From NCBI GenBank assembly GCA_017634975.1, contig JAGBMJ010000011.1:16367-80366 (forward strand): a stretch of DNA of 64,000 bases, read 5' to 3'. Every line of letters begins with the position of its first letter. The stretch's first letter is position 1. This document shows positions 10,524 through 40,976 of the stretch, piece after piece. A model generated the notes under the pieces. The model was not told the origin of the DNA, did no database searches, and saw only the letters and a list, made by a program, of their open reading frames with translations. The position numbers and the translations under genes are program-made. The DNA is from Lachnospiraceae bacterium. GTDB taxonomy: Bacteria > Bacillota > Clostridia > Lachnospirales > Lachnospiraceae.

Positions 10524-10562
10524 TCTATCTTCCTAAGCGGGTTTGGAAATGATTTTTCCGGT
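10524..10562 (-). promoter_or_regulatory. Conserved 39-bp phage control element, copy A (leftward)
   Basis: Read on the minus strand it is ACCGGAA, 11 variable bases, then AAACCCGCTTAGGAAG and ATAGA. It lies 37 bp upstream of the first gene of the leftward replication operon. Two other copies with the same internal spacing are at 10,663-10,701 and 40,938-40,976. It is probably a promoter or activator site specific to this phage. Confidence 0.65.
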
Positions 10563-10696
10563 CGCAGGGAAATAATTTTTGAAAAAGTGCCGGTCGTGAT
10601 TTCGCTTATAAAAGGAAGCGATTCAGACCGGCTGTATTTTTGTTTGCGAAATATGATGATTGACCGGAAAAAGTTCGGTGAAACCCGCTTAGGAAG
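10529..10696. repeat. Divergent control region bounded by 16-bp perfect inverted repeat
   Basis: CTTCCTAAGCGGGTTT (10,529-10,544) is exactly mirrored by AAACCCGCTTAGGAAG (10,681-10,696). Between them the two arms repeat CCGGTC (10,558 and 10,590) and GACCGG (10,626 and 10,662), and the centre has TCGCTT/AAGCGA. The two arms are therefore copies of one control module in opposite orientation, driving the leftward polymerase operon and the rightward primase operon. No gene lies in this 256-bp gap. Confidence 0.75.
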
Positions 10697-10701
10697 TTAG
10701 G
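10663..10701 (+). promoter_or_regulatory. Conserved 39-bp phage control element, copy B (rightward)
   Basis: ACCGGAA (10,663-10,669), 11 variable bases, AAACCCGCTTAGGAAG (10,681-10,696), then TTAGG. It is 41 bp upstream of the primase start. The fixed distance between the GGAA and CGCTTA blocks looks like a -35/-10 pair of ECF-sigma type, though no such sigma factor is encoded in the window. Confidence 0.65.
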
Positions 10702-10742
10702 AGGAAATTGTTCCTTACTTTTTAAGAAAAGAGGTTAAAGCT

Positions 10743-13031
10743 ATGAAGATTACCATGTTCACAGCAAATTGCGTTGGACAGGCCGGTAACTGTAGCTATC
10801 CAAGCCGTGCGGTAATAACCACGGCGGAGCAGCTGCAGAGCGCAGCCAGGTCAGACCACGTATGCGCAGAGTACAAGGGGAATTATCGAAGCATCGGGAA
10901 TTTCATAAGGTCAGATGTGATCGTGATGGATATCGATAATGACCATTCCGAGAATCCCGAAGACTGGATCACTCAGGAGAAGCTGGATGATATGTTTCCT
11001 GATTTCTCCTATGCTCTGGTACCAAGCCGCAATCATATGAAGGAAAAGGACGGCAAGCCGGCCAGACCGAAATACCACGTCTACTTCCAGATCGGTGAGG
11101 TCAAGGATGCGAAGGTTTATGCGGGATTGAAGAGAGCGCTTTATAAGAAGTGTCCGTTCTTTGACGGGAACGCGCTGGATGCAGCCAGGTTTTTATATGG
11201 TTCCGACAGTGGTGATGTGATTTGGCATGAAGGCTGGATGACCATTGATGAAGAGGTCAGTCCGGATTATTCAGATGAAGATTCGGATACTGCAGACGGA
11301 CAGGCAGGTAATAGTTCGGGGCCGATTCTGCAGGGAAGCCGTAACAACACCATGAGCCGTTTTGCCTCGAGGATCCTGAAAAGATACGGCAACACGGAGA
11401 AGGCTCATGTGGCTTTTATGGAGCATGCAGAGAAATGTGATCCGCCACTACCGGATGCGGAGCTGAATACGATCTGGAACAGTGCGGTGAAGTTTTTTGA
11501 AAAGAAGATCTCTTCATCAGACGGGTATGTGCCGCCCGAACAGTATAATTCCGATTTCAGCGATGCTTCCTTAAAGCCGGAAGATTATTCGGACATCGGT
11601 GAGGCGAAGGTATTGGTGCAGGAATACGGCAGCGAGCTCAGGTTCTCGGCCGCAACGGATTATCTCAGATATGACGGTGACCGCTGGGTGGAGGACATGC
11701 AGCTGGCAATCGGAGCGATTGAAGAGTTCCTTGATCTGCAGTTGGTAGACGCTCAGCAGGAGAAGGAAGTTGCAGAAAAGGCACTTATCGATGCCGGGAT
11801 TCCGGAGTCTGTCGTTAAGGGCGGTTCTAAAACAGTAGCGAAGGAGATAGCGGATGATCAGATGCCGCTTCTGTATGCGCTGATCTCGGCGGAGACCTAT
11901 TTGAAGTTCGTACTGAAACGCAGGGATTACAAATACATCGTTTCTACCGGGAATGCTGCAAAGCCGATGATCGGTATCGATGTGAATGACCTGGATAAGA
12001 ATGAGTTCCTCATCAATACACCGTATGCGACCTATGACCTGAGGCAGGGACTATCGGGGGAGCAGCCACATAATCCGGAAGATCTGATTACAAAGATTAC
12101 GACATGTGCACCGGGATCTGATGACGGACAGTTGTGGCTGGATGCCTTGGATCTGTTTTTCTGCGGTGATAAAGAGCTGATTGAGTATGTGCAGTTGGTG
12201 GTCGGAATGGCAGCGATCGGGAAGGTCTATCAGGAGCATATGATCATAGCCTATGGAGGCGGTGCAAACGGCAAGTCCACTTTCTGGAACACTATCTTCC
12301 GTGTTCTGGGTGATTATGCCGGGAAGCTTTCTGCAGAAGCCCTGACCATGAACTGCAAGAGAAATATCAAGCCTGAGATGGCGGAGCTCAAAGGCCGCAG
12401 GCTCATCATTTCATCGGAGATGGAAGAGGGAATGCGCCTTAACACGGCTACGGTAAAGCAGCTGTGTTCTACAGATGAGATCCAGGCAGAGAAGAAGTAC
12501 AAGGCCCCGTTCCATTTTGTGCCGTCACACACGCTGGTGCTGTACACGAACCACCTGCCGAAGGTCGGTGCAAATGATGACGGTATCTGGAGAAGATTGA
12601 TCGTGATTCCCTTCAATGCGAAGATCACCGGCGATAACGATATCAAGAATTATGCGGATTACCTGTATGAGCATGCCGGTTCCTTCATTATGAGCTGGAT
12701 TATCGAAGGCGCGAAGAAGGCTTATGACATGGATTTCAAGGTGCCACTTCCGAAGATTGTCGAGGATGCGATCGAAGCATACCGCGAGGATAACGACTGG
12801 CTGGGACACTTTCTGGCGGACTGCTGCGACATTGATAAGGCAGCATCTGAGAAGTCCGGAGAACTGTATCAAGCCTATAGGGCATACTGCCTGCAGAATG
12901 GAGAGTTTACCAGAAGTACGACAGATTTTTACAGTTCTATCGAGAAGTTGGGTTTCCCTAAGAAGAAGGTCAAGACGGGATCCTTTGTATATGGCTTGAA
13001 GTTAAAACAGGGGCAGGATTTTCTGGAGTGA
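10743..13031 (+). CDS. Phage P4-type primase/helicase (D5/VirE-like), 762 aa
   Basis: The N-terminal 200 residues resemble an archaeo-eukaryotic primase domain: VIVMDIDNDHSENPEDWI offers the metal-binding Asp pair, and ALVPSRNH then KYHVYFQIG the s-x-H and neighbouring strands. Residues about 300-700 are the D5_N/P4 superfamily 3 helicase, with Walker A AYGGGANGKSTFWN near residue 505, Walker B LIISSEMEEG, and sensor DDGIWRRLIVIPF. It should prime and unwind phage DNA for the family A polymerase. It is the first gene of the rightward early operon, behind control element B, and is followed by iteron-like repeats. Confidence 0.93.
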   Translation: MKITMFTANCVGQAGNCSYPSRAVITTAEQLQSAARSDHVCAEYKGNYRSIGNFIRSDVIVMDIDNDHSENPEDWITQEKLDDMFPDFSYALVPSRNHMKEKDGKPARPKYHVYFQIGEVKDAKVYAGLKRALYKKCPFFDGNALDAARFLYGSDSGDVIWHEGWMTIDEEVSPDYSDEDSDTADGQAGNSSGPILQGSRNNTMSRFASRILKRYGNTEKAHVAFMEHAEKCDPPLPDAELNTIWNSAVKFFEKKISSSDGYVPPEQYNSDFSDASLKPEDYSDIGEAKVLVQEYGSELRFSAATDYLRYDGDRWVEDMQLAIGAIEEFLDLQLVDAQQEKEVAEKALIDAGIPESVVKGGSKTVAKEIADDQMPLLYALISAETYLKFVLKRRDYKYIVSTGNAAKPMIGIDVNDLDKNEFLINTPYATYDLRQGLSGEQPHNPEDLITKITTCAPGSDDGQLWLDALDLFFCGDKELIEYVQLVVGMAAIGKVYQEHMIIAYGGGANGKSTFWNTIFRVLGDYAGKLSAEALTMNCKRNIKPEMAELKGRRLIISSEMEEGMRLNTATVKQLCSTDEIQAEKKYKAPFHFVPSHTLVLYTNHLPKVGANDDGIWRRLIVIPFNAKITGDNDIKNYADYLYEHAGSFIMSWIIEGAKKAYDMDFKVPLPKIVEDAIEAYREDNDWLGHFLADCCDIDKAASEKSGELYQAYRAYCLQNGEFTRSTTDFYSSIEKLGFPKKKVKTGSFVYGLKLKQGQDFLE

Positions 13032-13200
13032 CGGTCGATGACAGTCAAACAGTAAACTGTTTCAGATTTGCTGTTTCTCAGAAAGCCTTGATTTAAGCCG
13101 TGGTGACAGTCGGTGACACTCATACCAGAAAAGTCCCTATAGAGTGTTTTTCAAAACTGTTCTAAAGGGAGTTTTTGTGTAGACCATCACCGACCGTCAC
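13028..13200. repeat. Three 19-bp iteron-like repeats, candidate replication origin
   Basis: The consensus GTGACRGTCGRTGAYRSTC occurs at 13,028-13,046 (+, overlapping the primase stop), 13,103-13,121 (+) and 13,182-13,200 (-). Pairwise identity is about 15-16 of 19. The gap is otherwise gene-free. Repeats next to a P4-type primase gene are a typical setting for an origin recognised by that protein; that function is inference. Confidence 0.6.
13132..13177 (+). terminator. Imperfect hairpin with T-rich tail after primase
   Basis: TCCCTATAGA (13,134-13,143) pairs with TCTAAAGGGA (13,161-13,170) with one mismatch. It is followed by GTTTTT. It may partly terminate transcription leaving the primase gene, and it sits between repeats 2 and 3 of the iteron set. 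Confidence 0.5.
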
Positions 13201-13224
13201 CTTTGGCAGAATGCGGAGGTTGCG

Positions 13225-13506
13225 ATGCGAGAAAAGGTAATAGAGCAGAAGCTGGTTTCCGAGGTTAAGCGCCGTGGTGGGATCTGTCCGAAATGGGTGT
13301 CCCCAGGATTTGACGGGATGCCCGACCGATTAGTCTTTCTGCCGGGAAGGCATTTCGGGATGGTGGAAGTGAAGCGTCCCGGAGAAAGACCAAGACCACT
13401 TCAGGTATCGCGACACCAGCTTTTGATGAAATTAGGCTTCCGGGTCTATGTACTGGATGATCCGGAGCAGATTGGAGGAATACTGGATGAGATACAATCC
13501 ACATGA
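13225..13506 (+). CDS. VRR-NUC domain endonuclease, 93 aa
   Basis: This is the minimal stand-alone VRR-NUC form. REKVIEQKLVSEVKRRGG leads to GFDGMPDRLVFLPGR and FGMVEVKRPGE, giving the GxPD...EVK active site of the PD-(D/E)XK superfamily; the remaining catalytic residue is in SRHQ. In phages this nuclease lies next to an SNF2-like helicase and probably cuts branched DNA such as Holliday junctions or flaps. The downstream helicase gene begins inside its last seven codons, so the two are translationally coupled. Confidence 0.93.
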   Translation: MREKVIEQKLVSEVKRRGGICPKWVSPGFDGMPDRLVFLPGRHFGMVEVKRPGERPRPLQVSRHQLLMKLGFRVYVLDDPEQIGGILDEIQST

Positions 13507-14863
13507 TTATCAGATATATGCGATCAATTTCATAAAGGAACATCCCATTGCAGCAATCCTTTTGGATATGGGCATGGGTAAGACCAGCATCGTGCTGGCG
13601 GCGCTGAATGAGCTGATGTTTAATAGCTTTGAGGTGACAAAAGTTCTGATCATAGCGCCTTTGAGGGTAGCGAAGCATACGTGGTCAGCAGAAATACAAA
13701 AGTGGGACCAGCTCCGGGGTCTTCGATATTCTATTGCAGTCGGTACGGCAGCAGATAGGATGAAGGCACTTCAGGCAGATGCGGATATCTACATTATCAA
13801 CAGAGAAAACGTGCCCTGGCTGATTGAGAAGAGCGGGCTGCCGTTTGACTACGACATGGTGGTGATCGATGAGCTTTCATCTTTTAAGAACTGGCAGGCA
13901 AAGAGATTCAAGGCGCTTATGCAGGTAAGACCGAGGGTGAAAAGAATTGTCGGTTTGACCGGAACACCTTCGAGTAACGGTTTGATGGATCTCTTTGCAG
14001 AATACAAGGTTCTGGATAAAGGTGAGAGACTGGGAAGGTTCATCAGTCAGTACAGAGCAGAATATTTTGTGCCGGATCAGGTAAACGGTCCGATCGTGTA
14101 CAGTTATCGACTAAGGAAGGGTGCCGATAAGAGGATTTACGACAGAATTTCAGATATCACGATTTCCATGAAGGGGACAGACCATTTGAAGATGCCGGAG
14201 CTGGTGAATTCAGAATATCCTGTTTATCTGGATGATGATGAGCGTGAAAAATATGAGGCGATGGCCAGCGACCTTGTGATCAATCTTCCGGGAGGCGAAG
14301 TGACGGCTGCAAATGCTGCAACATTATCCGGAAAGCTGACACAGATGGCAAACGGTGCCGTTTACTCCGATGCCGGTGGTATCGAGCATATTCATGATAA
14401 GAAGCTTGATGCCTTGGAGGATATCATCGAGGCAGCGAATGGAAAAAGCATTCTTGTGGCGTATTGGTTCAAGCATGATCTGACAAGGATCACTGAAAGG
14501 CTTGATGCACTGGGCGTTCATTACGGAAAGCTTGATTCTGACAGCAGTATTGAAGATTGGAATGCAGGAAGACTGGAAGTAGGACTCATTCATCCGGCTT
14601 CTGCTGGACATGGGCTGAATCTTCAGAGCGGCGGCAATACCCTTGTGTGGTTCGGCATGATATGGAGCCTGGAGCTTTACCAGCAGACTGTGGCAAGACT
14701 TTGGAGACAGGGACAGGAATCTGGAACGGTCGTAGTTCAGCATATTATTACGGCGGATACGATTGATGAAAGAATATTGAAGGCACTGTCGCATAAAGGC
14801 GATACACAGTCCAGACTGATCGATGCCGTAAAAGCTGAGGTGAGTGCCTATGGCAGGAAGTAA
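13487..14863 (+). CDS. SNF2-family DEAD/DEAH helicase, 458 aa
   Basis: ATG 13,487 is chosen because GGAGG (13,474-13,478) is 8 bp upstream; an earlier in-frame ATG at 13,448 lacks one. Motif I is LLDMGMGKTS and motif II VVIDELSSFKN (DE-L-S variant of DEAH). Motif III is VGLTGTPSSNG. The C-terminal domain has LNLQSGGNTLVWFG and QTVARLWRQGQESG, the SNF2 motifs V and VI. It should translocate on duplex DNA using ATP, working with the VRR-NUC protein in branch processing or strand exchange during phage replication. Confidence 0.93.
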   Translation: MRYNPHDYQIYAINFIKEHPIAAILLDMGMGKTSIVLAALNELMFNSFEVTKVLIIAPLRVAKHTWSAEIQKWDQLRGLRYSIAVGTAADRMKALQADADIYIINRENVPWLIEKSGLPFDYDMVVIDELSSFKNWQAKRFKALMQVRPRVKRIVGLTGTPSSNGLMDLFAEYKVLDKGERLGRFISQYRAEYFVPDQVNGPIVYSYRLRKGADKRIYDRISDITISMKGTDHLKMPELVNSEYPVYLDDDEREKYEAMASDLVINLPGGEVTAANAATLSGKLTQMANGAVYSDAGGIEHIHDKKLDALEDIIEAANGKSILVAYWFKHDLTRITERLDALGVHYGKLDSDSSIEDWNAGRLEVGLIHPASAGHGLNLQSGGNTLVWFGMIWSLELYQQTVARLWRQGQESGTVVVQHIITADTIDERILKALSHKGDTQSRLIDAVKAEVSAYGRK

Positions 14864-15134
14864 GAATCTGGCTGAAGATCCATATGAGCGATTGGCAAAC
14901 GCTATTGTTCTGCAGGCGGTATCCGATTACAGGGTGGCGCTGAAGAAGATCAAGGCTCATCCGAAAAACAGAGAGGCAATCAGCGAAGCCTTGGAGATTG
15001 AGAAGTTCTTTCGCTCCGGCTGGTACAGCCAGCTGACTGATGTGGACGGGGAATATCTGATCCGGAGGCTTCAGGACGAAATAAGACAATCAGAGTCAAT
15101 CCAAGGGAAGAAAAATAAATCCAATCGGAGGTAG
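14850..15134 (+). CDS. Conserved phage protein, 94 aa, unknown function
   Basis: GAGG (14,837-14,840) supports ATG 14,850; it overlaps the helicase stop by 14 bp. The protein is helical and basic: NLAEDPYERLANAIVLQAVS, YRVALKKIKAHPKNREA, EIEKFFRSGWYSQLTDVDGE. Such small proteins regularly lie between the SNF2 helicase and the DUF1492 gene in related prophages. The FFRSGWY segment is a family marker, but I know no function. Confidence 0.8.
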   Translation: MAGSKNLAEDPYERLANAIVLQAVSDYRVALKKIKAHPKNREAISEALEIEKFFRSGWYSQLTDVDGEYLIRRLQDEIRQSESIQGKKNKSNRR

Positions 15135-15137
15135 CTT

Positions 15138-15569
15138 ATGAACAAGCATCAGATAGCAGCAAAGAAATATTTGTCGCAGGCCTTTGGACTGAATCAGCGT
15201 ATCGAGAGCAAGCTGGGTCAGATTGAGGAACTTCATGATCTGGCAACCAAAGCGACCGTGACATATTCGGATATGCCGAGGAATCCGAACAAAGGACATT
15301 CCCGTCTGGAGGATGCGGTGATAAAGATCATCGAACTTGAAACCGAGATCAATAAGGATATGGTGGAACTGGTTGAACTGAAGAAGGATATCATCCGCAG
15401 GATAAAAGCCGTGGAGAGTACAGAGCTTCAGACTGTATTGGAGCTTAGGTACCTGTCCTATATGAGATGGGAAGAGATCGCCATCGAGCTTGGATACGGT
15501 ATCGACAATGTATTCCGCCTTCACAGGAATGCACTGGATGAAATCAAGATTCCGAAAACAATACAGTAA
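15138..15569 (+). CDS. DUF1492-type late transcription regulator (sigma region 4-like)
   Basis: Residues 1-95 form a long helical coiled region. Residues 100-140 (LELRYLSYMRWEEIAIELGY, then VFRLHRNALDEI) are a helix-turn-helix like sigma-70 region 4. DUF1492/ArpU/RinA-like proteins in this position, just before HNH and terminase, switch on late genes in several Firmicute phages. It is the last gene of the early operon; a terminator-like hairpin follows at 15,634. The regulatory role is inferred from family and position. Confidence 0.85.
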   Translation: MNKHQIAAKKYLSQAFGLNQRIESKLGQIEELHDLATKATVTYSDMPRNPNKGHSRLEDAVIKIIELETEINKDMVELVELKKDIIRRIKAVESTELQTVLELRYLSYMRWEEIAIELGYGIDNVFRLHRNALDEIKIPKTIQ

Positions 15570-15633
15570 AATCAAGTACGATACAGTAAGCCTATGTGAT
15601 ATTGTTAAAATGGCAAAAGGCTAAGATTAAGGA

Positions 15634-27966: not shown

Positions 27967-30792
27967 ATGGCTGGACGGATCCAGGGGATCACCGTTGAGA
28001 TTGGCGGCGATACCACCAAACTACAGACAGCCCTGAAGGGCGTAAATACAGAGATCAGGAATACCCAGAGCCAGTTGCGTGATGTCGATAAGCTCCTGAA
28101 ACTTGATCCGGGGAATACGGAACTGCTTGCTCAGAAGCGCAGGCTTCTGGGAGATGCCGTTAAGGAAACGAAGGAAAAGCTGGAGACCTTAAAGACGGCG
28201 GCGGAACAGGCTGATCAGGCACTTAAGGACGGCACGATCACACAGGAACAGTATGACGGCCTGCAGAGGGAGATCGTTGAGACAGAGCAGAAGCTGAAGG
28301 CTTTGGAGGAACAGGCGAAAGCTTCCGGCACGGCGCTTCAGGAGATCGCCGCTAAGGGTGAGAAGCTGAAGACGGTCGGTGATAATATCACCAATGTCGG
28401 AAAGAAATTCATGCCTGTGACTCTGGGCGTTGTGGGATTAGGTACGGCGGCGGTGAAAACTGCCGCTGATTTTGATTCCGCCATGAGCAAGGTTGCAGCG
28501 GTGTCCGGTGCTACAGGCTCTGATCTGGAAGCACTCAGGGATAAAGCCCGTGAGATGGGTGAAAAGACGAAGTTCTCCGCATCCGAAGCAGCAGAAGCCA
28601 TGAACTATATGGCGATGGCCGGCTGGAAGACGGAAGATATGCTTTCCGGTATCGAGGGCGTGATGAATCTTGCGGCTGCTTCCGGTGAAGATCTGGCAAC
28701 CACTTCGGATATCGTGACGGATGCGCTTACAGCTTTCGGATTATCGGCTTCTGATTCCGGGCACTTCGCGGATATCCTTGCGGCGGCAAGTAGCAATGCG
28801 AATACGAATGTCTCCATGATGGGTGAGACCTTTAAGTATTGCGCTCCTATTGCCGGTGCTTTGGGATTCTCTGCGGAAGATACAGCAGAAGCGATCGGTC
28901 TGATGGCGAATGCAGGTATCAAGGGTTCTCAGGCTGGTACAGCGCTCAGAACCATTATGAATAACCTGTCCGGGGATGTGACGATCTGCGGATCCGCTAT
29001 CGGAGAAGTTACGGTCGCTACGACAAATGCTGACGGTTCCATGAGGGATCTGTCGGATATACTGGCTGACTGCCGGACGGCTTTTTCCGGCTTGACGGAA
29101 TCGGAGAAGGCACAGGCGGCTGAATCGCTTGTGGGTAAGAATGCGATGTCCGGATTCCTGGCTCTTATGAATGCCGGGGAAGGCGATATCAATAAGCTTT
29201 CATCTGCAATCGATAACTGTGACGGCTGTGCTGCTGATATGGCTGAGACCATGAATGACAACCTTGCCGGTCAGCTTCAGATATTAAAGTCACAGCTGGA
29301 GGAACTGGCTATCTCTTTCGGGGAACTTCTGATGCCTGCGATCCGGACGATAGTGGGATGGATCCAGAAGTTCGTGGACTGGCTCAATTCGATGGATGAG
29401 GGAACCAGAAAGGTGATCGTGACGATTGCCCTGGTGGCGGCTGCAATCGGTCCGGTACTGATCATAGTAGGCAAGGTTATTTCTGCGGTCGGTACCATTA
29501 TGACTCTGGTGCCGAAGCTGGCGGGCGTGATTAATGCAGCGAAGGGGGTATTTGCAGCTTTCAATGCGGTATGTGCGGCGAATCCGTATGTGCTGATCAT
29601 AGCGGCGATCGTGGCTCTGGTGGCAGCATTTATCTATCTGTGGAACAACTGTGAAGAGTTCCGGCAGTTCTGGATTGACCTGTGGGAGAGTATCAAAGAG
29701 ATTGCCATTGCCGTATGGGAAGCACTGAAGACCTTCTTCAAAGCGGCATGGGAAGCAATCAAGTCCACAGCGGAAACGGTCTGGAATGCGATAAAGAATT
29801 TCTTATCAGGGCTGTGGGAAGGTATCAAGAATATCTTCACGACTGTGGTAAATGCGATCAGCACGTTCCTGACCAATGCCTGGAATGCGATAAAGAATAC
29901 CGTGACTACCGTGTGGAATGCGATCAAGACATTTTTCACAACGGTCTGGAATGGGATCAAGAATATCGTTACCACGGTGGTGACGGCGATTTCCACATTC
30001 CTGACTACGGCGTGGAACGCTATAAAGAACACGGTCACAACGGTGCTGAATGCGATAAAGACCGTGGTGACAACGGTCTGGAATGGCATTAAGTCTGTTA
30101 TCACGACTATCGTGAACGGGATCAAGAATACCGTCACGACGGCATGGAATAATATCAAGAACACGGTTGTTTCTGTCGGAAATGCGATCAAGTCCGCGGT
30201 GACAAATCTGTGGAACAATGTTACTTCTGCCGTGAAGAATGCGATGAGCAATGTGTTCAATGCAGTAAAGACGGGATTTTCCAATGTGAAGAACCATATC
30301 ACGGGACTTGCGTCCCAGGCGTTTAACTGGGGCAAGGATCTGATCATGGGTATCGTGAATGGTATCAAATCCTGTATCAGCGCGGTGGGCGATGCCGTGA
30401 AATCCGTGGCGGATAAGATCAAGAGCTTCCTGCATTTCTCCGTCCCGGATGAAGGACCGCTGACCGATTATGAGAAATGGATGCCGGACTTTATGAAGGG
30501 TCTGGCTGACGGCATTGAGAAGAGCCGAGGCATGATCGAACAGGCGATGCAGGGCGTGACCGGGGATATGACGATCACTCCGAGGGTGCTGGCTGCTTCC
30601 GGAGGTTATTCGGGGGCAAGTGTTTCTAATGGAGATCTGATCTCCGGTATCAATACGGCACTGAACACGGCTCTTGCCGGTGGCGGCGCTGCGGGGGATA
30701 TCGTGATCCCGGTTTATATCGGCGGTGACATGATCGATGAGATCGTGGTTACAGCTCAGCAAAGAATGAATCTGAGAAGTGGAGGCAGGTAA
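27967..30792 (+). CDS. Phage tail tape measure protein
   Basis: The 941-aa protein opens with GRIQGITVEIGGDTTKLQTA and a long coiled coil (residues 20-125). A TP901-type tape-measure core (residues 165-440; SKVAAVSGATGSDLEALRDK, FSASEAAEAMNYMAMAGW) follows. Hydrophobic helices are at 485-560. Residues 570-790 consist of about 11-residue repeats of the W-N-x-I-K-N/T type. Its length sets the tail length, and the hydrophobic part helps DNA entry. AAGGAGGG precedes the ATG. It is separated from its chaperones by the metal cassette. Confidence 0.96.
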   Translation: MAGRIQGITVEIGGDTTKLQTALKGVNTEIRNTQSQLRDVDKLLKLDPGNTELLAQKRRLLGDAVKETKEKLETLKTAAEQADQALKDGTITQEQYDGLQREIVETEQKLKALEEQAKASGTALQEIAAKGEKLKTVGDNITNVGKKFMPVTLGVVGLGTAAVKTAADFDSAMSKVAAVSGATGSDLEALRDKAREMGEKTKFSASEAAEAMNYMAMAGWKTEDMLSGIEGVMNLAAASGEDLATTSDIVTDALTAFGLSASDSGHFADILAAASSNANTNVSMMGETFKYCAPIAGALGFSAEDTAEAIGLMANAGIKGSQAGTALRTIMNNLSGDVTICGSAIGEVTVATTNADGSMRDLSDILADCRTAFSGLTESEKAQAAESLVGKNAMSGFLALMNAGEGDINKLSSAIDNCDGCAADMAETMNDNLAGQLQILKSQLEELAISFGELLMPAIRTIVGWIQKFVDWLNSMDEGTRKVIVTIALVAAAIGPVLIIVGKVISAVGTIMTLVPKLAGVINAAKGVFAAFNAVCAANPYVLIIAAIVALVAAFIYLWNNCEEFRQFWIDLWESIKEIAIAVWEALKTFFKAAWEAIKSTAETVWNAIKNFLSGLWEGIKNIFTTVVNAISTFLTNAWNAIKNTVTTVWNAIKTFFTTVWNGIKNIVTTVVTAISTFLTTAWNAIKNTVTTVLNAIKTVVTTVWNGIKSVITTIVNGIKNTVTTAWNNIKNTVVSVGNAIKSAVTNLWNNVTSAVKNAMSNVFNAVKTGFSNVKNHITGLASQAFNWGKDLIMGIVNGIKSCISAVGDAVKSVADKIKSFLHFSVPDEGPLTDYEKWMPDFMKGLADGIEKSRGMIEQAMQGVTGDMTITPRVLAASGGYSGASVSNGDLISGINTALNTALAGGGAAGDIVIPVYIGGDMIDEIVVTAQQRMNLRSGGR
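29770..30260 (+). repeat. In-frame tape-measure repeats
   Basis: Around ten degenerate 33-bp units encode W/L-N-A/G-I-K-N/T-x-V/F-T-T-V. They are internal coding repeats typical of tape measure proteins. They offer sites for tail-length change by recombination. Confidence 0.8.
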
Positions 30793-31349: not shown

Positions 31350-31706
31350 ATGAACACAGATAAGACATTTGCAGAGGCGATAGCAAGCGAATATGCACCA
31401 AAGGACACCAGTAAGGTGGTAGCGCTTAAGAAGCTAGACAAGAAAGCCAAGATGCCAGCAACGATTTTTACATACACATTCGGAATATGCTCTGCACTCA
31501 TTATGGGGCTTGGCATGTGCTTGTGCATGGGTGTAATAGGTAACGGAATGGTTATGACGGTGCTGGGAATCGTAATCGGCGTGATCGGACTCATAGCAAT
31601 GAGTGTTAATTATCCGGTATATAGAAAGATGCTTGAGAAGGGAAAGAGTCAGTATGCATATGAAATCACGCAGCTTGCCAAGGAGATAGCTGAAGCGGCT
31701 GAGTAA
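31350..31706 (+). CDS. Small membrane protein of tail-operon cargo, 118 aa
   Basis: A soluble charged N-terminus (TDKTFAEAIASEYAPKDTSK) is followed by two membrane helices (FTYTFGICSALIMGLGMCLC and MVMTVLGIVIGVIGLIAMSV). A cytosolic helical tail (KGKSQYAYEITQLAKEIAEA) ends the protein. CAGGAGGG precedes the ATG. It is encoded immediately before a TetR-type regulator and is probably controlled by it. I know relatives only as uncharacterised proteins beside TetR genes in Clostridia. Confidence 0.8.
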   Translation: MNTDKTFAEAIASEYAPKDTSKVVALKKLDKKAKMPATIFTYTFGICSALIMGLGMCLCMGVIGNGMVMTVLGIVIGVIGLIAMSVNYPVYRKMLEKGKSQYAYEITQLAKEIAEAAE

Positions 31707-31709
31707 TAT

Positions 31710-32315
31710 GTGACTCTGCAAAGAGGAATGAACAGATCCGAAAGTAAATATTTCAATACAGCTCTCAGGATGGATGATGCGCTTGTGTCGCTATTGGAAG
31801 AGAAAAGTTTGGAATATGTAACGGTAAAAGAGATATGCGAGAAAGCAGGTGTTAATCGTTCCACGTTCTATCTTCACTATGAAACGATTGAAGACCTGCT
31901 TTCAGAGTGCGTGGAAAATGTTAATAAGAAATTCCTTTCGTATTTTGGAGATAGGCACAAGGACTTCATTGAAAAGATTGATGCTGCTCCGCTGGAAGAC
32001 CTGATTCTTATAAAGGATGAATACCTCATACCGTATCTGCAATTTATAAATGAAAACCGTAATGTCTTTAATGCGGCGTACAATAGTCCTCACGGTATGC
32101 AGTCAACACAGAAGTTTGAGGGATTATATCAGTACATTTTTGAACCTATTCTGGAAAGGTTTGATTATCCGGAAGCAGAGCGTAAATATGCGATTACATA
32201 TTACATAAATGGCATTGCGGCGGTAGTTAGGGAATGGCTGAAGGGCGGATGCGGAGAAACGAAAGAGGATATTGCAGCAGTGATTTTCAGATGTATACGG
32301 CCACAAATGACATAA
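31710..32315 (+). CDS. TetR/AcrR-family transcriptional regulator
   Basis: The HTH at residues 20-65 reads LLEEKSLEYVTVKEICEKAG, then VNRSTFYLHYETIEDLL, the TetR DNA-binding signature. The ligand domain ends with the TetR_C_7-like segment YYINGIAAVVREWLKGGCGE. The start is uncertain: GTG 31,710 gives a few extra residues, while ATG 31,728 has AAGAGG almost touching it. It lies 3 bp after the small membrane gene, and the two may be one unit regulated by an unknown ligand. Confidence 0.9.
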   Translation: MTLQRGMNRSESKYFNTALRMDDALVSLLEEKSLEYVTVKEICEKAGVNRSTFYLHYETIEDLLSECVENVNKKFLSYFGDRHKDFIEKIDAAPLEDLILIKDEYLIPYLQFINENRNVFNAAYNSPHGMQSTQKFEGLYQYIFEPILERFDYPEAERKYAITYYINGIAAVVREWLKGGCGETKEDIAAVIFRCIRPQMT

Positions 32316-32332
32316 AAACAAGAGGTGCGATC

Positions 32333-32344
32333 ATGTACTTATGA
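32333..32344 (+). other. Three-codon upstream reading frame
   Basis: AAGAGGTG (32,320-32,327) is placed for an ATG at 32,333 that reads ATG TAC TTA TGA. Its stop overlaps the ATG of the next membrane-protein gene (32,341), which has no site of its own at normal distance. Termination followed by re-initiation could set its expression. Confidence 0.4.
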
Positions 32345-33009
32345 AGAGATTAGTCAGGGCAATAAGGAAAACTACTTTAGGGAAGAGGGTTCTTGATGAC
32401 CCTCTGTTTCGTGTGCTTATAACTTCAAGTGGGAGTATGGGCTGGAATCTGATCTATGCATTATTCAACGGAGTACTGGCAATCGCATACAGATCATTTT
32501 GGTTTTTGTCGATGTTTGTATATTATTTGATTCTTGGCGGCATGAGACTCCTGGTGGTATCTCCAAAGAAAGACAGGTCAGCGGAAAGGTGGAGTGACAA
32601 TGCAATTATGCGAACTTTAGGGATAGAAATGATTATCCTTGCAGTTGTTGTATCAGGCATTGTCTGTATGGCAATCGCAGAGAAGCATAATCCTTCATAT
32701 AATACTGTTGTTATGATCACGATAGCAACTTATACGTTTTATGCGGTCACGATGTCAATCATAAACATAGTCAAGGCTCATAAGAAGAAGGATGCTACAA
32801 TGATCATGTTGCGGGATATTTCACTCGCCGGGACGATAGTTGCCGTGCTGTCATTAGAAAGATCAATGTTAGGGACTTTTGGGAATGCTGAAGATGGCTT
32901 TTCTACGACTATGGAGATTATATCCGGTGCAGTGGCATTCGTATTGATAATTGTAATTGGAATATCTATGATCATGCAGGCAAAGAACAATATGAAACAG
33001 AAAAAATAG
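32341..33009 (+). CDS. Multi-pass membrane protein, 222 aa, unknown
   Basis: About five membrane helices are visible (MGWNLIYALFNGVLAIAYRS, FLSMFVYYLILGGMRLLVV, IEMIILAVVVSGIVCMAIA, VVMITIATYTFYAVTMSIIN, IISGAVAFVLIIVIGISMIM). No catalytic motif is present. It is the last gene of the second tail-operon insert after the TetR regulator. Relatives are uncharacterised. A transport or stress role controlled by the TetR protein is possible but not shown. Confidence 0.8.
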   Translation: MKRLVRAIRKTTLGKRVLDDPLFRVLITSSGSMGWNLIYALFNGVLAIAYRSFWFLSMFVYYLILGGMRLLVVSPKKDRSAERWSDNAIMRTLGIEMIILAVVVSGIVCMAIAEKHNPSYNTVVMITIATYTFYAVTMSIINIVKAHKKKDATMIMLRDISLAGTIVAVLSLERSMLGTFGNAEDGFSTTMEIISGAVAFVLIIVIGISMIMQAKNNMKQKK

Positions 33010-36406: not shown

Positions 36407-36436
36407 ATCTCCAGGCAACTGAATAACTGTTCACAA

Positions 36437-36464: not shown

Positions 36465-36488
36465 TGCAATGAAATGGAGGGATTTGCG

Positions 36489-36920
36489 ATGAAGGAATTT
36501 TGGAATGTGATACAGGCGATATTTGCGGCTGTGGGCGGATGGCTTGGGTATTTCCTTGGAGGATGTGACGGCCTGCTTTATGCGCTTCTGGCTTTTGTGG
36601 TGCTGGATTACATCACAGGGATTATGTGTGCAGTGGCGGACAAGAAGCTGTCGAGTGCTGTGGGATTTAAGGGAATCTGCAGAAAGGTTCTGATCTTTGC
36701 ACTGGTAGGTATCGGGCATCTGCTTGATACGCAGGTGATCGGGAGCGGGAGCGTTTTAAGGACAGCAATCATTTTCTTCTATATCTCCAATGAAGGGTTG
36801 TCGCTGGTGGAAAACGCGGCGTATCTGGGGCTTCCTATCCCAACGAAGCTGCACAAGGTATTGGAACAGCTCCATGACAGGGCTGAGAAGGAAGATGATA
36901 AGAAGGACGGTGAGAAGTAA
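36489..36920 (+). CDS. Holin, phi-LC3/toxin-secretion type
   Basis: ATG 36,489 is 8 bp after GGAGG (36,476-36,480). The product (KEFWNVIQAIFAAVGGWLGY, FLGGCDGLLYALLAFVVLDY, ITGIMCAVADKKLSSAVGFK) is the bacteriophage holin family known as TIGR01593/Holin_4. It has about three membrane helices and a charged C-terminus (EKEDDKKDGEK). It forms membrane holes that release the endolysin encoded directly downstream (1-bp overlap). Confidence 0.94.
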   Translation: MKEFWNVIQAIFAAVGGWLGYFLGGCDGLLYALLAFVVLDYITGIMCAVADKKLSSAVGFKGICRKVLIFALVGIGHLLDTQVIGSGSVLRTAIIFFYISNEGLSLVENAAYLGLPIPTKLHKVLEQLHDRAEKEDDKKDGEK

Positions 36921-38404
36921 TGGGGTACACGAATAGTTCTATGGTGGTTTACACGAAGCTTTCCCCGAATCATTCCGGGCAGAGGACGATGGCGATTGAC
37001 CGCATCACGCCGCACTGTGTGGTGGGTCAGTGCACGGCGGAAGGTCTGGGAGATTGGTTTTATAAGAGCAGCACACAGGCATCCAGCAATTACGGGATTG
37101 ATAAGGATGGGCGTGTCGGAATGTATGTGGAAGAGAAAAACCGCTCATGGTGCTCTTCCAGCAATGCCAATGACCAGAGGGCGATCACGATCGAGTGCGC
37201 TTCCGATACCACGGAGCCGTATGCTTTCCGGGATGTGGTTTATAAGAGGCTGATCGAGCTCTGCATTGATATCTGCAAGAGGAATGGCAAGAATAAGTTG
37301 ATCTGGTTCGGGGATAAGGATAAGACGCTGAATTATTCCCCGAAGAGCGGGGAGATGATCCTGACGGTTCACAGGTGGTTCGCGAATAAAAGCTGTCCGG
37401 GCAACTGGATGTATGCGAGAATGGGAGATCTGGCGGAGAAGGTGACGAAGGCTTTGCAGGGTTCCGGTGGTGGTTCTGCCTCTAAGGGTACGCAGGCATC
37501 TGTCCTAAAGGATCTGTCCGAGGCGGATGCGGTCAAGAAGGTCGGTGCGCTTTTCACGGCTGATCAGAAAAAGAGCGGCATCCTGGCATCGGTATCGCTG
37601 GCTCAGTTCATTCTGGAATCCGGATATGGGAAGAGTGAGCTGGCTCAGAATGCCAACAATATCTTCGGGATGAAGTGCAGCCTGTCCGGGAATACATGGA
37701 GCGGTTCTTCATGGGATGGAAAGAGCAGGTACACGAAGAAGACGCAGGAACAGAATGCGGACGGCAGCTATGAGACTATCACGGCAGATTTCAGGAAGTA
37801 TTCTTGCATTGAGGATTCCATTGCCGACCACTCCGCTTATCTGATTGGGGCGATGAACGGAAAGAAGCTGAGATATGACGGGCTGAAGGGATGCACGGAT
37901 TATAAGAAGGCTGTACAGATCATCAAGGATGGCGGGTACGCTACAAGCCTGACCTATGTGGAGAAGCTTTGTTCCATCATTGAGAAGTGGAAGCTGGCGG
38001 ATTATGACGCAAAGGATTCCGGCGGAGAAGTGATCCGGTGGTACCGTGTCAGGAAGTCCTGGGCGGATTCCAAGACGCAGAAGGGAGCCTATAAGATTCT
38101 GGATAATGCGAAGAAGTGTGCGGATCAGAATCCGGGATATAAGGTGTTCGATGCGGATGGCAAGGTGGTGTATGAGCCTAAGACGGCGGAGCCTGCGGTG
38201 AAGGTGCCGTTTTTAGTGAAGGTCAGTATCTCAGATCTGAATATCAGAAGCGGAGCTGGGACTAATTTCACCAGAGTTCAGTTTTGCCCGCCAGGCGTGT
38301 ATACGATTATGGAGGTGAAAGCCGGACAAGGCTCTAAGGCTGGATGGGGAAGGCTGAAGAGCGGGATAGGATGGCTGAGTTTGGACTTCTGCCAGAAACT
38401 ATAA
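36920..38404 (+). CDS. Bifunctional endolysin: amidase, glucosaminidase and SH3 domains
   Basis: Residues 1-165 are an N-acetylmuramoyl-L-alanine amidase (RITPHCVVGQCTAEGLGDWF, SSNYGIDKDGRVGMYVEEKN, LTVHRWFANKSCPGN, with zinc His and Cys). Residues 205-355 are a glucosaminidase-like (GH73) domain: FTADQKKSGILASVSLAQFI, LESGYGKSELAQNANNIFGM. Residues 430-494 are an SH3 cell-wall-binding domain (ISDLNIRSGAGTNFTRVQFC). Cutting both peptide and glycan bonds is less common in phage endolysins than a single activity. It lacks a signal peptide, as expected with a holin. Confidence 0.93.
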   Translation: MGYTNSSMVVYTKLSPNHSGQRTMAIDRITPHCVVGQCTAEGLGDWFYKSSTQASSNYGIDKDGRVGMYVEEKNRSWCSSSNANDQRAITIECASDTTEPYAFRDVVYKRLIELCIDICKRNGKNKLIWFGDKDKTLNYSPKSGEMILTVHRWFANKSCPGNWMYARMGDLAEKVTKALQGSGGGSASKGTQASVLKDLSEADAVKKVGALFTADQKKSGILASVSLAQFILESGYGKSELAQNANNIFGMKCSLSGNTWSGSSWDGKSRYTKKTQEQNADGSYETITADFRKYSCIEDSIADHSAYLIGAMNGKKLRYDGLKGCTDYKKAVQIIKDGGYATSLTYVEKLCSIIEKWKLADYDAKDSGGEVIRWYRVRKSWADSKTQKGAYKILDNAKKCADQNPGYKVFDADGKVVYEPKTAEPAVKVPFLVKVSISDLNIRSGAGTNFTRVQFCPPGVYTIMEVKAGQGSKAGWGRLKSGIGWLSLDFCQKL

Positions 38405-38407
38405 CTG

Positions 38408-38472
38408 AATAACGAATCGTTATTGAGCCTGCGGGCATTGGGAGAAATCCTGATGTTTCGCAGGCTTCTTTC
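38408..38472 (+). terminator. Terminator region after endolysin
   Basis: A perfect palindrome AATAACGA-A-TCGTTATT (38,408-38,424) precedes a longer hairpin. In the latter AGCCTGCG (38,426-38,433) pairs with CGCAGGCT (38,459-38,466), then TCTTTC follows. This closes the late operon. Confidence 0.7.
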
Positions 38473-38473
38473 A

Positions 38474-38527
38474 TTTACAGAAAAAAGTTTAACGGGTATA
38501 ATAAACATGACATACAGTTGTCATGTT
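38474..38527 (+). promoter_or_regulatory. WYL-operon promoter and perfect operator
   Basis: TTTACA (38,474) and TATAAT (38,497) are 17 bp apart. AACATGACA-TACAGT-TGTCATGTT (38,504-38,527) is a perfect 9-bp inverted repeat placed right after the -10 box, where a bound repressor would block transcription. The WYL-type regulator encoded next is the obvious candidate for autoregulation. Confidence 0.8.
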
Positions 38528-38562
38528 GAGTTTGCTATGATTTGTACGGAGTGTGAGAGATT

Positions 38563-39477
38563 ATGAAGATAGACAGACTTATCGGGATATTGTCGATCTT
38601 ACTGCAGGAAGAAAAGACAACGGCTCCTGAACTGGCTGAAAGGTTTGAAGTATCACGCAGGACAATAAACCGTGATATTGAAGACCTTTGCAAAGCGGGA
38701 ATTCCTATAAGGACTGCTCAGGGTACCGGAGGCGGTATCAGCATTATGGATGGATATCGTATGGATAGGACGATTCTGACTTCAAAAGATATGCAGATGA
38801 TCCTTGCGGGACTCAGGAGCCTTGATAGTGTGAGCGGAAGCCAGTACTACGGTCAGTTGATGGAAAAGATTCAGACCGGATCATCTGAGTTCATCAGTGG
38901 CAGGGACTCCATGCTGATAGACCTTTCCTCATGGTATAAGGGTTCTCTTGCACCGAAGATTGAGGTGATCCAGAGTTCAATAGAAAACAGGCACCTTATA
39001 GAGTTTAAGTATTATGCACCGTCCGGAGAGAGCAACAGAAGGATAGAGCCGTATTATCTGGTTTTCCAATGGTCGAGCTGGTATGTATGGGGATGGTGCT
39101 TAGACCGCAAAGATTACAGGCTGTTCAAGCTGAACCGTATGGATCGCGTTGCAGAAACGAATAAGGAATTTGTCTGCCGGAATGCACCTATGCCGGATTT
39201 GTCGAATGAGAAGATATTTCCGGGTGGAATTAAGGTGAAGGCTCTTTTTACACCGGATATGAAGTGGCGATTGGTTGAAGAATTCGGACCGCATTGCTTT
39301 ACAGAAGCTGATGATGGAAGGCTGCTCTTTTCGGCGGATTATACGGATATGGAAAACCTTGTGACCTGGCTTATGACATTTGGGGCAAAAGCAGAGGTGC
39401 TGGAACCTTCTGAGGCGCGGGACATTATACGCAGAAATGCGGAAGATACACTAAAAATCTATGGAGGATTAGCATAA
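38563..39477 (+). CDS. WYL-domain (YafY-type) transcriptional regulator
   Basis: Residues 1-60 are an HTH_11/DeoR-like winged helix (LIGILSILLQEEKTTAPELA, then VSRRTINRDIEDLCKAGIPI). Residues 135-230 are the WYL domain (HLIEFKYYAPSGESNRRIEP, YYLVFQWSSWYVWGWC). A WCX-like C-terminal part follows. WYL regulators respond to small ligands or nucleic acid and often control stress genes. It is first in a four-gene rightward cargo operon and overlaps the next gene by one base. Confidence 0.93.
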   Translation: MKIDRLIGILSILLQEEKTTAPELAERFEVSRRTINRDIEDLCKAGIPIRTAQGTGGGISIMDGYRMDRTILTSKDMQMILAGLRSLDSVSGSQYYGQLMEKIQTGSSEFISGRDSMLIDLSSWYKGSLAPKIEVIQSSIENRHLIEFKYYAPSGESNRRIEPYYLVFQWSSWYVWGWCLDRKDYRLFKLNRMDRVAETNKEFVCRNAPMPDLSNEKIFPGGIKVKALFTPDMKWRLVEEFGPHCFTEADDGRLLFSADYTDMENLVTWLMTFGAKAEVLEPSEARDIIRRNAEDTLKIYGGLA

Positions 39478-39896
39478 TGAGATTAGATGGATTTGGTTTA
39501 CTTGTTGATGATATGGGAAAGATGATCCGGTTTTACAGGGATGTACTCGGATTTGAAATTAAAGAAGATGAGAATACGTCTAATGTTTACCTTGTAAAGG
39601 ACGAAACACTCTTTCTTCTATATGGCAGGAAGGATTTTGAGAAGATGACTAGCCGGCGATATGAATACATTAAGGGTTTGAACGGTCATTTTGAAATAGC
39701 GCTGTATGTTGACACATTTGAAGAAGTGGATGGAGCATATAAGAAGGCCGTGGAAAATGGTGCGACATCCGTGCTGGAACCAGAGCTTGAACCTTGGGGA
39801 CAGAGAACCTGCTATATCGCTGATCCGGAAGGCAATCTGATCGAGATTGGTTCATGGAATAGGCCTTATGAAGAGAAAAATCTGACGGAGGGATAA
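39477..39896 (+). CDS. VOC-family (glyoxalase/bleomycin resistance-like) protein
   Basis: The 139-aa protein has the paired beta-alpha-beta-beta-beta units of the vicinal oxygen chelate fold: GFGLLVDDMGKMIRFYRDVL (first half) and HFEIALYVDTFEEVDGAYKK with CYIADPEGNLIEI (second half). The C-terminal Glu and the His may bind metal. Such proteins detoxify or bind small electrophiles or antibiotics. Substrate is unknown. The ATG overlaps the upstream stop. Confidence 0.92.
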   Translation: MRLDGFGLLVDDMGKMIRFYRDVLGFEIKEDENTSNVYLVKDETLFLLYGRKDFEKMTSRRYEYIKGLNGHFEIALYVDTFEEVDGAYKKAVENGATSVLEPELEPWGQRTCYIADPEGNLIEIGSWNRPYEEKNLTEG

Positions 39897-39902
39897 AAGG
39901 GT

Positions 39903-40535
39903 ATGGCGTTTGATTACAAGAAGGAATACAAAGAATTCTATATGCCGAAGGGTACGCCGTCTATCGTTACTGTTCCGAAGATGAATTATATCGCGGTCAG
40001 GGGCAGCGGAAATCCAAATGATGAAGACGGTGAGTATAAGCAGGCTATTGGTCTTCTGTATGGGATCGCGTTTACGATCAAGATGAGTAAAAAAGGTGAT
40101 CATCAGATTGACGGATACTTCGACTATGTGGTGCCGCCGTTGGAAGGATTCTGGTGGCAGGACGGCGTGGTAGGCGTAGATTATGCGAATAAGGGTTCCT
40201 TTCAGTGGATATCCGTCATCCGTCTGCCTGATTTTGTAACGAAAGAAGATTTCGACTGGGCTGTCAGAGAAGCAACGGTTAAGAAAAAACAGGATTTTTC
40301 AAAGGTAGAATTATTTACCTATGATGAAGGTTTGTGTGTGCAGTGCATGCATATTGGATCGTATGATGATGAGCCTGCCACTGTAGAAGCAATGCACAGG
40401 TTTATGGAAGGACAGGGATATGTTCTTGATATCACCAATCAGAGAATGCACCACGAGATTTATCTGAGCGATGCAAGGAAGGTTGCACCGGAGAAACTGA
40501 AAACTGTGGTCAGGCATCCGATAAAGAAAGTGTAG
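39903..40535 (+). CDS. GyrI-like small-molecule-binding protein, 210 aa
   Basis: The sequence (DYKKEYKEFYMPKGTPSIVT, VPKMNYIAVRGSGNPNDEDG, QAIGLLYGIAFTIKMSKKGD) is the GyrI-like/SOUL-associated family that often lies next to regulators. FFLAND-like segments FWWQDGVVGVDYANKG and VQCMHIGSYDDEPATVEAMH form the hydrophobic binding cleft. It has no DNA-binding part, unlike the AraC/GyrI protein at 5,076. It may bind or hydrolyse toxic cyclic compounds, as some GyrI-like proteins do. Confidence 0.88.
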   Translation: MAFDYKKEYKEFYMPKGTPSIVTVPKMNYIAVRGSGNPNDEDGEYKQAIGLLYGIAFTIKMSKKGDHQIDGYFDYVVPPLEGFWWQDGVVGVDYANKGSFQWISVIRLPDFVTKEDFDWAVREATVKKKQDFSKVELFTYDEGLCVQCMHIGSYDDEPATVEAMHRFMEGQGYVLDITNQRMHHEIYLSDARKVAPEKLKTVVRHPIKKV

Positions 40536-40543
40536 GTGAGCGT

Positions 40544-40858
40544 ATGGCATCAACAAAAGAGTATCTGGACTTTGTTCTGGAACAATTATCAGGGCTGGAT
40601 GAAATCAGCAGCCGGGCAATGATGGGAGAATATATCCTTTATTATCGAGGAAGAGTGTTTGGTGGAATATACGATGACAGGCTTTTGGTGAAGCCTGTTC
40701 TGGCTGCAATGAAACTTATGCCGGATGCGGAGATGGAACTGCCGTATGAAGGGGCGAAAGAGATGCTCCTGGTTGATGACGTGGATAATCGGGAGTTTCT
40801 GTGTAAGCTGGTTGAGAGTATGTGGGAAGAACTGCCGGATAAGAAAAAGAAGAAATAG
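40544..40858 (+). CDS. TfoX/Sxy N-terminal domain protein, 104 aa
   Basis: The domain is recognisable from KEYLDFVLEQLSGLDEISSR, then AMMGEYILYYRGRVFGGIYD, DRLLVKP and the PYEGAKEMLLVDDVDNREF end. Only the N-terminal TfoX domain is present. The C-terminal helix-hairpin part of the competence regulator Sxy is absent. Stand-alone forms are common in Clostridia and their role is unclear. It ends the WYL operon at a strong terminator. Confidence 0.9.
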   Translation: MASTKEYLDFVLEQLSGLDEISSRAMMGEYILYYRGRVFGGIYDDRLLVKPVLAAMKLMPDAEMELPYEGAKEMLLVDDVDNREFLCKLVESMWEELPDKKKKK

Positions 40859-40881
40859 TGCATAGAATTATTGAATTGATT

Positions 40882-40921
40882 ACGGTCAGTGGAGATTTCT
40901 CTGCTGGCCGTTATTTTTTTG
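40882..40921 (+). terminator. Strong terminator after WYL operon
   Basis: A stem of about 14 bp (40,882-40,911) pairs ACGGTCAG...GGAGA with TCTCTG-CTGGCCGT, including a few G-U pairs. It is followed by TATTTTTTT. It separates the cargo operon from xis-int. Confidence 0.85.
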
Positions 40922-40937
40922 TCTTTTTTCGGTTTTT

Positions 40938-40976
40938 ACCGGAATTATCTCGTCCAAAGGCGCTTAGGAAGATAGA
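40938..40976 (+). promoter_or_regulatory. Conserved 39-bp phage control element, copy C
   Basis: ACCGGAA (40,938-40,944), 11 variable bases, AAAGGCGCTTAGGAAG (40,956-40,971), then ATAGA. The layout is identical to the copies at 10,524-10,562 (minus) and 10,663-10,701. It ends 15 bp before the excisionase-like gene, so the two replication operons and the integration genes share a control sequence. Confidence 0.65.

Follow-up and report, generated by a model that had tools for sequence, protein, structure and literature searches.

A two-box element before the replication and recombinase operons of a Lachnospiraceae prophage occurs in about 16 versions that vary together with a candidate phage-encoded factor

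In a 64,000-nucleotide stretch of the genome of a Lachnospiraceae bacterium (assembly GCA_017634975.1, contig JAGBMJ010000011.1, positions 16,367 to 80,366; hereafter the window), a two-box element, ACCGGAA-N11-AAANNCGCTTAGGAAGWTAG, stands before three operons of a prophage: a leftward operon for DNA polymerase, a rightward operon for primase, and an operon for excisionase and integrase (xis-int). The reading that we favour, with a probability of roughly 0.58, is that each copy would be a promoter of a dedicated phage regulon with a phage-encoded specificity factor. In related phages the element recurs with nearly fixed geometry in about 16 sequence versions (assigned by hand as classes A to P; the window carries class A), and the version covaries with a gene of the same prophage, here called the candidate factor.

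Exactly three exact matches to the element occur in the window, copies 1 and 2 forming a divergent pair between the polymerase operon on the left and the primase operon on the right, and none occurred in 100 dinucleotide shuffles of the window, even with three mismatches allowed. An earlier note on this DNA had described the spaced motif, its three copies, and an 11-bp spacer of variable sequence and constant length, all of which the matches bear out; its three sites were right, but it gave the size as 39 bp where the element measures 38 bp, and some of its ends were off by one. The first bases of the spacer are partly conserved in relatives. Copy 1 ends 29 bp before a conserved 56-aa open reading frame (ORF; 10325-10495, minus strand) that heads the polymerase operon, copy 2 ends 42 bp before the primase ATG (10743), and for copy 3 the gap is 7 bp to the longest xis start (GTG 40983) and 17 bp to the likely ATG (40993). 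No sigma-70-like site was found near the three copies.

Across the whole 4.36-Mb, 147-contig genome, the core of the element, CGCTTAGGAAG, occurs three times, always within the prophage. At up to three mismatches no host regulon is visible, with 20 genome matches (the three of the window included) compared with 14 for the reversed control. This search of the host genome, which the earlier note had proposed, bears on the idea that a host alternative sigma factor reads the element and that the phage merely exploits it. The two-box form does resemble alternative-sigma promoters; however, the rest of the host genome shows no surplus of sites, close relatives among the phages have different versions while the copies within one phage agree, and the gene that covaries best is carried by the phage and does not belong to the host core, being found in 2 of the 60 relatives searched, the window genome (G000) included (E 1e-10). 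We consider a host sigma factor improbable.

The region before xis-int lends indirect support to a promoter function. An intrinsic terminator lies just upstream of copy 3, with 26 bp between the end of its stem and the element, and the xis start follows directly behind. Because of this terminator, and with no sigma-70-like site nearby, the xis-int promoter most likely lies within the element. In a scan of twelve phages or prophages over most or all of their length, seven besides the window have a third site, each of the version found in that phage, ahead of a recombinase operon or of a small ORF with which such an operon may begin (G292 (A), G397, G399, G400 (H), G404 (K), G405 (D) and PV036455); in G405 and PV036455 the recombinase itself was not read out behind the site. 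A third site was not found in G398, G402, G408 and G409, whose records may be incomplete. In all eight cases a stem-loop with a T-run stands just upstream of the third site, as judged by scanner for the window and by eye for the other seven. The same arrangement bears on a role in RNA, in which the element would be a leader or processing signal of the three transcripts. Such a role could draw on the conserved purine-rich 3' part beside the ribosome-binding region and on small hairpins seen by eye behind copies 1 and 2 in some relatives, but the terminator stem and the xis start on either side of copy 3 leave hardly any space for a separate promoter, no pairing between the boxes is seen by eye, and no Rfam family reaches threshold (the best, SQ2397, scores 20.3 bits against a threshold of 100). 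We regard it as highly improbable.

The comparison covered 80 related loci found with the DUF2800 protein. At the equivalent spot, 39 of these carry a divergent pair of alike elements (35, then 4 with a wider window), of which 36 score above the maximum of 195 dinucleotide shuffles and three equal it. Among the 41 loci without a pair, L114 (score 27) also beats the shuffle maximum and was set aside by eye, as were L134 (score 25) and L102 and L131 (score 26 each, in another scan). The 39 pairs fall into about 15 versions, and PV036455 makes 16. Box 1 mostly starts [CT]CG and follows the pattern [C/T]CG..AA (CCGGAAAA in the window prophage), while box 2 has the consensus TGTCCTTAG (CGCTTAG in the window prophage), with a nearly fixed 24 bases from the start of box 1 to the CTTA part of box 2. 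When copies from the same phage are compared, agreement is 0.90-1.00 in columns 1-7 and 21-29 and 0.02-0.40 in columns 10-16.

The two boxes vary separately. Box 1 ACCGGAAAA is paired with CGCTTAG (A) or GCTACATAG (I), box 1 CCGTTCAA with TGTCCATAG (G) or TGACCCAAG (O), and box 2 GGAACTTTA with two types of box 1 (C, D). Versions change even where replication genes are alike, L074 belonging to class B despite an ArpU at 99% and a primase at 83%, and persist where ArpU has diverged, L021 and L086 belonging to class A with ArpU at 33% and 32%. That copies are alike within a phage might suggest a recent, functionless duplication of one sequence. This is hardly credible given that boxes but not spacers are retained, in some 16 versions, at three homologous positions and even where the recombinase module has been replaced.

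Exact copies of the class A element recur well beyond the window. A scan of IMG/VR returned 25 stretches with the exact core, and all fetched sequence together holds 52 distinct exact sites (L024 and L144 being one site counted twice), with 20 before the polymerase operon, 18 before the primase operon, 12 before a recombinase and two uninformative, namely a truncated site (L008) and one in G078. Some phages have a tyrosine-type recombinase and others, for example G292, two large serine recombinases. In a sample of the family, 4 of 397 genomes have an exact match, and the number rises to 12 of 397 when a single mismatch is tolerated. The one-mismatch variant CCCCTTAGGAAG is present in G232 as a divergent pair next to disrupted genes for polymerase and primase, and in G313 it stands before xis-int. 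The search of related prophages suggested by the earlier note thus finds the element retained before the same three operons, even with serine recombinases in place of the tyrosine integrase, and its proposal of a regulon for replication and excision is strongly supported by these placements. The G078 site (L057:10135-10167, minus strand) is a lone class A copy near a low-molecular-weight (LMW) phosphatase-like gene, with no adjacent integrase seen by eye, and is probably a prophage remnant at the same attachment gene.

The version does not follow ArpU, phrog_408 or primase. Family clustering of phage genes yielded a protein that class H phages share at 80-84% and of which a class A phage encodes a distant relative. 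A search with the class A relative gave matches in the window's own contig at C117:4998-5576, inside the prophage (window base 1 is C117:16367; this gene and attL lie to the left of the window), and in the class A hosts G292 and G369. The same search gave no match in G004, G335, G232, G077, G313, G367 and G078 and none in the viral records G402, G404, G405 and G406, with a weak match in G403. With a 20-member profile, whose 20 members match by construction, the family lies downstream of polA on the opposite strand in 12 of the 39 loci with a pair, and upstream of DUF2800 on the same strand in 32 of the 41 pair-less loci, five of them weaker than 1e-5. The latter genes (32 among L098-L141) often have a Cys4 motif.

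The factors divide along the versions of the element. Profile matches are to phrog_2513 for G000 (8e-17), G409, PV036455, L206, L073 (C) and G432 (J), whereas phrog_13787 is the better or only match for G400 (H), L084 (G), L092 (H), L107 and, weakly, L081 (F). Versions with a CGGAA-type box 1 (A, C, J, N) go with PHROG_2513 members, and G and H, with F weakly, go with PHROG_13787; both families are listed as of unknown function. Exact sites are also commoner where close relatives of the factor occur. Close relatives of the factor (70-92%) were found in 11 genomes, six of which have exact class A sites (G452, G453 (Butyrivibrio sp. M55), G459, G460 (Agathobacter ruminis JK623), G461 and G462), compared with 4 of 397 family genomes (Fisher p=1.5e-8); without G000 and the genomes in both sets, the counts are 5/10 and 2/395 (p=5.9e-8). 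In G000, G452, G453 and G462, factor and pair are on one contig, 20-25 kb apart, the contig being matched by length in the last three. In G488, a genome with a distant factor, the 40 kb that were read contained no core genes, and neither a DUF2800 match nor a class C-like site was found.

We compared similarity of each box with similarity of phage proteins in 22 phages with factor and element and in 12 lineages hand-chosen from them to remove near-duplicates; box 2 of L073 was shifted by one column in these sets. On the 12 lineages, box 1 correlates with the factor C-terminus at r=0.74 and with the whole factor at 0.60 (0/3000 permutations as high), compared with 0.52 for polA, 0.33 for the ssDNA-binding protein (SSB) and 0.05 for DUF2800. 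For box 2 the values are 0.59 for the factor C-terminus, 0.51 for the whole factor, 0.14 for polA, 0.02 for SSB and 0.01 for DUF2800, and on the 22 phages 0.72 for the factor and 0.52 for polA. The phrog_408 protein gives 0.21 (box 1) and 0.20 (box 2), and on a set of 10 phages ArpU reaches 0.12 and 0.01, compared with 0.82 and 0.84 for the factor. As cognate factor, ArpU (phrog_36), phrog_408, primase, helicase and VRR-NUC were each rejected as tracking the version worse than the factor, and so were polymerase, SSB and DUF2800 on the 12 lineages, polA being the closest rival; no gene common to class A phages alone was seen among the matches listed. By eye, the recognition-helix region of the factor tracks box 1, with QTTLH or QMTLH accompanying CCGTTCAA, KST accompanying CCGTCCAA in two divergent lineages, RRTLR accompanying CCGCCCAA, and TQ, SQ or SRG followed closely by Y accompanying CGGAA.

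The C-terminus of the factor appears to be a helix-turn-helix (HTH) domain like sigma region 4, joined by a linker to a variable N-terminus. Two family members match sigma factors in PHROGs over the linker and region 4 (L107, 4e-11; L084, 1e-8), and L092 has a sigma match in NCBIfam over its C-terminal part at 8e-8, below cut-off. A structure model of L206, a close relative of the class A factor, has a mean predicted local distance difference test score (pLDDT) of 75.7 and a predicted template modelling score (pTM) of 0.40. It shows an alpha/beta domain at the N-terminus, a linker that is poorly modelled, and a C-terminal domain of four helices whose pLDDT is near 90. No sigma-2 domain matched in the factor in Pfam or NCBIfam. 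Against the PDB, sigma chains match the family profile weakly (E 0.0009-0.15) and after LuxR-type HTH domains.

This last result fits a different proposal, that the factor is a classical activator or repressor, such as an immunity regulator, which binds the boxes while host sigma-A or another host sigma transcribes. LuxR-type response regulators indeed match better than sigma chains, version switching resembles phage immunity types, and in G000, G292 and G369 the factor adjoins a phrog_4031 protein with an IrrE/M78-like domain, recalling repressor/protease pairs. However, no version has a TATAAT box (by eye) and the window copies have no sigma-70-like site; two unlike boxes that vary separately but keep a nearly fixed distance of 24 nt would be an unusual target for a dimeric repressor; and a phrog_4031-like gene was not seen by eye beside the factor in L206, L207 and L216. 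We consider a classical regulator unlikely, though it deserves to be taken seriously.

On the reading of the element as a promoter with a dedicated factor, the factor (of PHROG_2513 type in this prophage and of PHROG_13787 type in certain other versions) would let host RNA polymerase use the element. Box 1 would be the -35-like part, most likely read by the sigma-4-like domain of the factor, and box 2 the -10-like part, for whose recognition the remainder of the factor or a partner would be responsible. Production of the factor would then activate the two replication operons and the recombinase operon at once, and the prophage would thereby excise as replication starts, and lineages would change factor and element copies together, giving rise to about 16 versions. 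The leader of the factor gene (L061:5577-5830, minus strand; equivalents in L206-L211 and L213-L216) is about 250 nt long, with a conserved CCTCC..GGAGG hairpin able to cover the factor ribosome-binding site; it also contains another stem, which shows covarying pairs, and possibly a short ORF upstream. The leader resembles a translational switch and, because the hairpin can cover the ribosome-binding site, control of the factor may lie in its translation.

A number of observations weigh against this reading. In the covariation, box 1 on the 22 phages correlates with the factor (r=0.64) about as with polA (0.63), and the permutations do not correct for the tree. Variable spacer columns correlate with the factor as well (r=0.57 on 22 phages, 0.40 on 12), and for this reason part of the covariation may be shared ancestry. 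Box 2 correlates with the N-terminal part of the factor at 0.43 and with the C-terminal part at 0.59, which gives no assignment of box to domain, and in L073 the boxes are 23 nt apart instead of 24. The class K factor (L103:11005-11649), assigned by position and eye, has no support from PHROGs, NCBIfam or the factor profile, yet is part of the covariation sets. In structure, the class A factor has no sigma match in Pfam, NCBIfam or PHROGs, its sigma-4 likeness resting on the family alignment and on the model of low pTM; in that model the N-terminus is alpha/beta and not sigma-2, and Foldseek found no PDB match for the model at E 0.001. In distribution, a nine-member factor profile matched 15 of 48 viral records, which may be incomplete, and none of the long pair-bearing records G402, G404, G405, G411 and G421; no factor match was obtained in G408, a class A viral record that may be incomplete, or in G078 despite its class A site; and the close-factor genomes G454 to G458 (5/11) have no exact site. 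Conversely, inspection of 30 of the 32 factor-bearing pair-less loci revealed no convincing pair (the best scores being 26 of 36); as these relatives carry a factor-like gene without a convincing element, the factor family would also do something else.

Several known systems share features with the element and the factor. Promoters of extracytoplasmic function (ECF, group IV) sigma factors are, like the element, two short boxes with fixed spacing, and in ECF systems -35 and -10 specificities mix and factor and promoter co-evolve. The earlier note had likened the boxes to an ECF -35/-10 pair; the promoter half of that suggestion gains indirect support from the upstream terminator, the lack of a sigma-70-type site and the two boxes, while the family label is not supported, with no sigma-2 domain found and no sigma match of the class A factor in Pfam or NCBIfam. 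Unlike ECF factors, the phage factor has a modelled alpha/beta N-terminus, and sigma matches occur only in other members of its family, over the C-terminal part. In the sections consulted of PMC8103513, ECF promoters have GGAA-type -35 boxes and a central A-tract; the element has both. Split sigma factors offer a second parallel, as described in parts of the accounts of SigO-RsoA of Bacillus subtilis (PMC8103513) and of T4 gp55-gp33 (PMC2988020), in that a sigma-4-like protein without sigma-2 serves accessory or phage promoters. T4 late promoters, however, lack a -35 box and gp33 reads no sequence (PMC2988020, in the part consulted), whereas box 1 here is strongly conserved and tracks the factor; no sigma-2 partner of the kind found in split systems was identified for the phage factor.

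Two further systems are of phage origin. ArpU/RinA-type late regulators (phrog_36) are small sigma-4-like phage regulators, as the factor would be, and one is encoded in this prophage, but it does not track the element version and lies downstream of the primase. In CI-type immunity regions of temperate phages, versions switch between close relatives and regulator and sites change together. The element versions likewise switch between close relatives together with the factor; in contrast to CI-type regions, the sites are non-palindromic and two-box, and the factor gene is found either within a cargo region or adjacent to polA. Among the prophage genes scanned, which are a part of all, none was recognised as CI-like.

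A 22-bp repeat marks attL and attR and delimits a prophage of 56.4 kb, inside which the window starts at about 13 kb (Table 1). Ca. Heliusviridae, reported to be a widespread gut phage family, share nine genes, for DUF2800, DUF2815, DNA polymerase I, VRR-NUC, SNF2 helicase, large terminase, portal, Clp protease and major capsid, in the part of PMC9226167 consulted. By Pfam matches all nine are found in the prophage, the VRR-NUC match falling just under the cut-off (22.8 vs 23.8 bits) in a protein that also matches endonuclease phrog_93. DUF2815 we take to be the Enc34 SSB family. PV036455.1, labelled Heliusvirales, is a relative, and by its gene content the prophage is Heliusviridae-like (order Ca. 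Heliusvirales).

Table 1. Features of the prophage, in window coordinates unless preceded by C117
Feature	Position	Strand	Remarks
Element copy 1 (class A)	10525..10562	-	exact match; precedes leftward polymerase/SSB/DUF2800 operon
Element copy 2 (class A)	10663..10700	+	exact match; precedes rightward primase operon
Element copy 3 (class A)	40938..40975	+	exact match; precedes xis-int
Intrinsic terminator	40882..40911	+	scored by scanner; just upstream of copy 3
Family A DNA polymerase	5955..7946	-	Pfam match
Enc34-type ssDNA-binding protein (SSB)	8286..8855	-	family match
DUF2800 nuclease-like protein	8868..9989	-	Pfam match
phrog_408 protein, function unknown	9982..10341	-	family match
Conserved 56-aa ORF, first of left operon	10325..10495	-	similar small ORFs there in other-class phages
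D5-type primase/helicase	10743..13031	+	Pfam match
VRR-NUC-like nuclease, SNF2 helicase, phrog_7024 protein, ArpU-like (phrog_36) regulator	13225..15569	+	downstream of primase
ArpU-like (phrog_36) regulator	15138-15569	+	last of genes behind primase
Tn916-type excisionase (xis)	40983..41207	+	family match
Tn916-type tyrosine integrase (int)	41318..42619	+	family match
attR	42983..43004	.	22-bp repeat, 5' end of LMW tyrosine phosphatase-like gene; partner attL C117:2998-3019
Candidate factor gene, 192 aa	C117:4998-5576	-	same prophage, outside window

Several other features of the prophage were observed. The 56-aa ORF before the polymerase genes has the sequence IDEELIDTLIAISVVAKRLA, and similar ORFs head the left operon in phages of other versions. 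Between the divergent elements, window 10588-10633 holds an imperfect inverted repeat, TCGCTT..AAGCGA, possibly an origin or a terminator; a general hairpin at this place was rejected, the pattern occurring in only 2 of the 39 loci (L086, L090) besides the window and PV036455. Cargo of differing content in relatives lies between factor and polymerase (C117:5999-16477 (L061) and window 130-5906), with genes for a phrog_4031 protein with an IrrE-like domain, a DNA methylase and ResIII helicase, a Schlafen AlbA_2 protein, a NUDIX protein, three GNAT acetyltransferases and an AraC/GyrI regulator. The tape-measure gene contains an array of 33-bp period (29751-30208; twelve overlapping 95-nt copies). 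Among the tail genes, a TetR-family gene and two ORFs without family match (31350-33009) have no BLAST match in G292 stretches L052 and L053, and between lysin and terminator, WYL regulator, glyoxalase, GyrI and TfoX genes (38563-40858) have no match in G292, whose third site directly follows the lysin.

Literature searches, covering titles and the beginnings of abstracts, returned nothing on this element, the factor or lytic-gene switching in Heliusviridae. A three-operon regulon linking replication to excision, with a matching phage factor, represents a concrete and testable switch, and its co-varying versions constitute a natural data set for the evolution of a sigma-4-like domain and its DNA box, as well as a possible source of separate promoter/factor pairs. 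We speculate, as a tentative proposal that is more doubtful than probable, that proteins of the PHROG_2513/13787 type are a new kind of transcription specificity subunit, with a sigma-4-like domain and a non-sigma-2 N-terminus, that acts as the lytic/excision switch of a widespread gut phage group. If so, such a subunit would suffice to direct host RNA polymerase to two-box promoters, the roughly 16 versions would be natural promoter specificities, for the most part separate from one another, and a lineage would switch immunity type by exchanging its factor and its sites at the same time. It would also assign a function to phage protein families at present listed as unknown.

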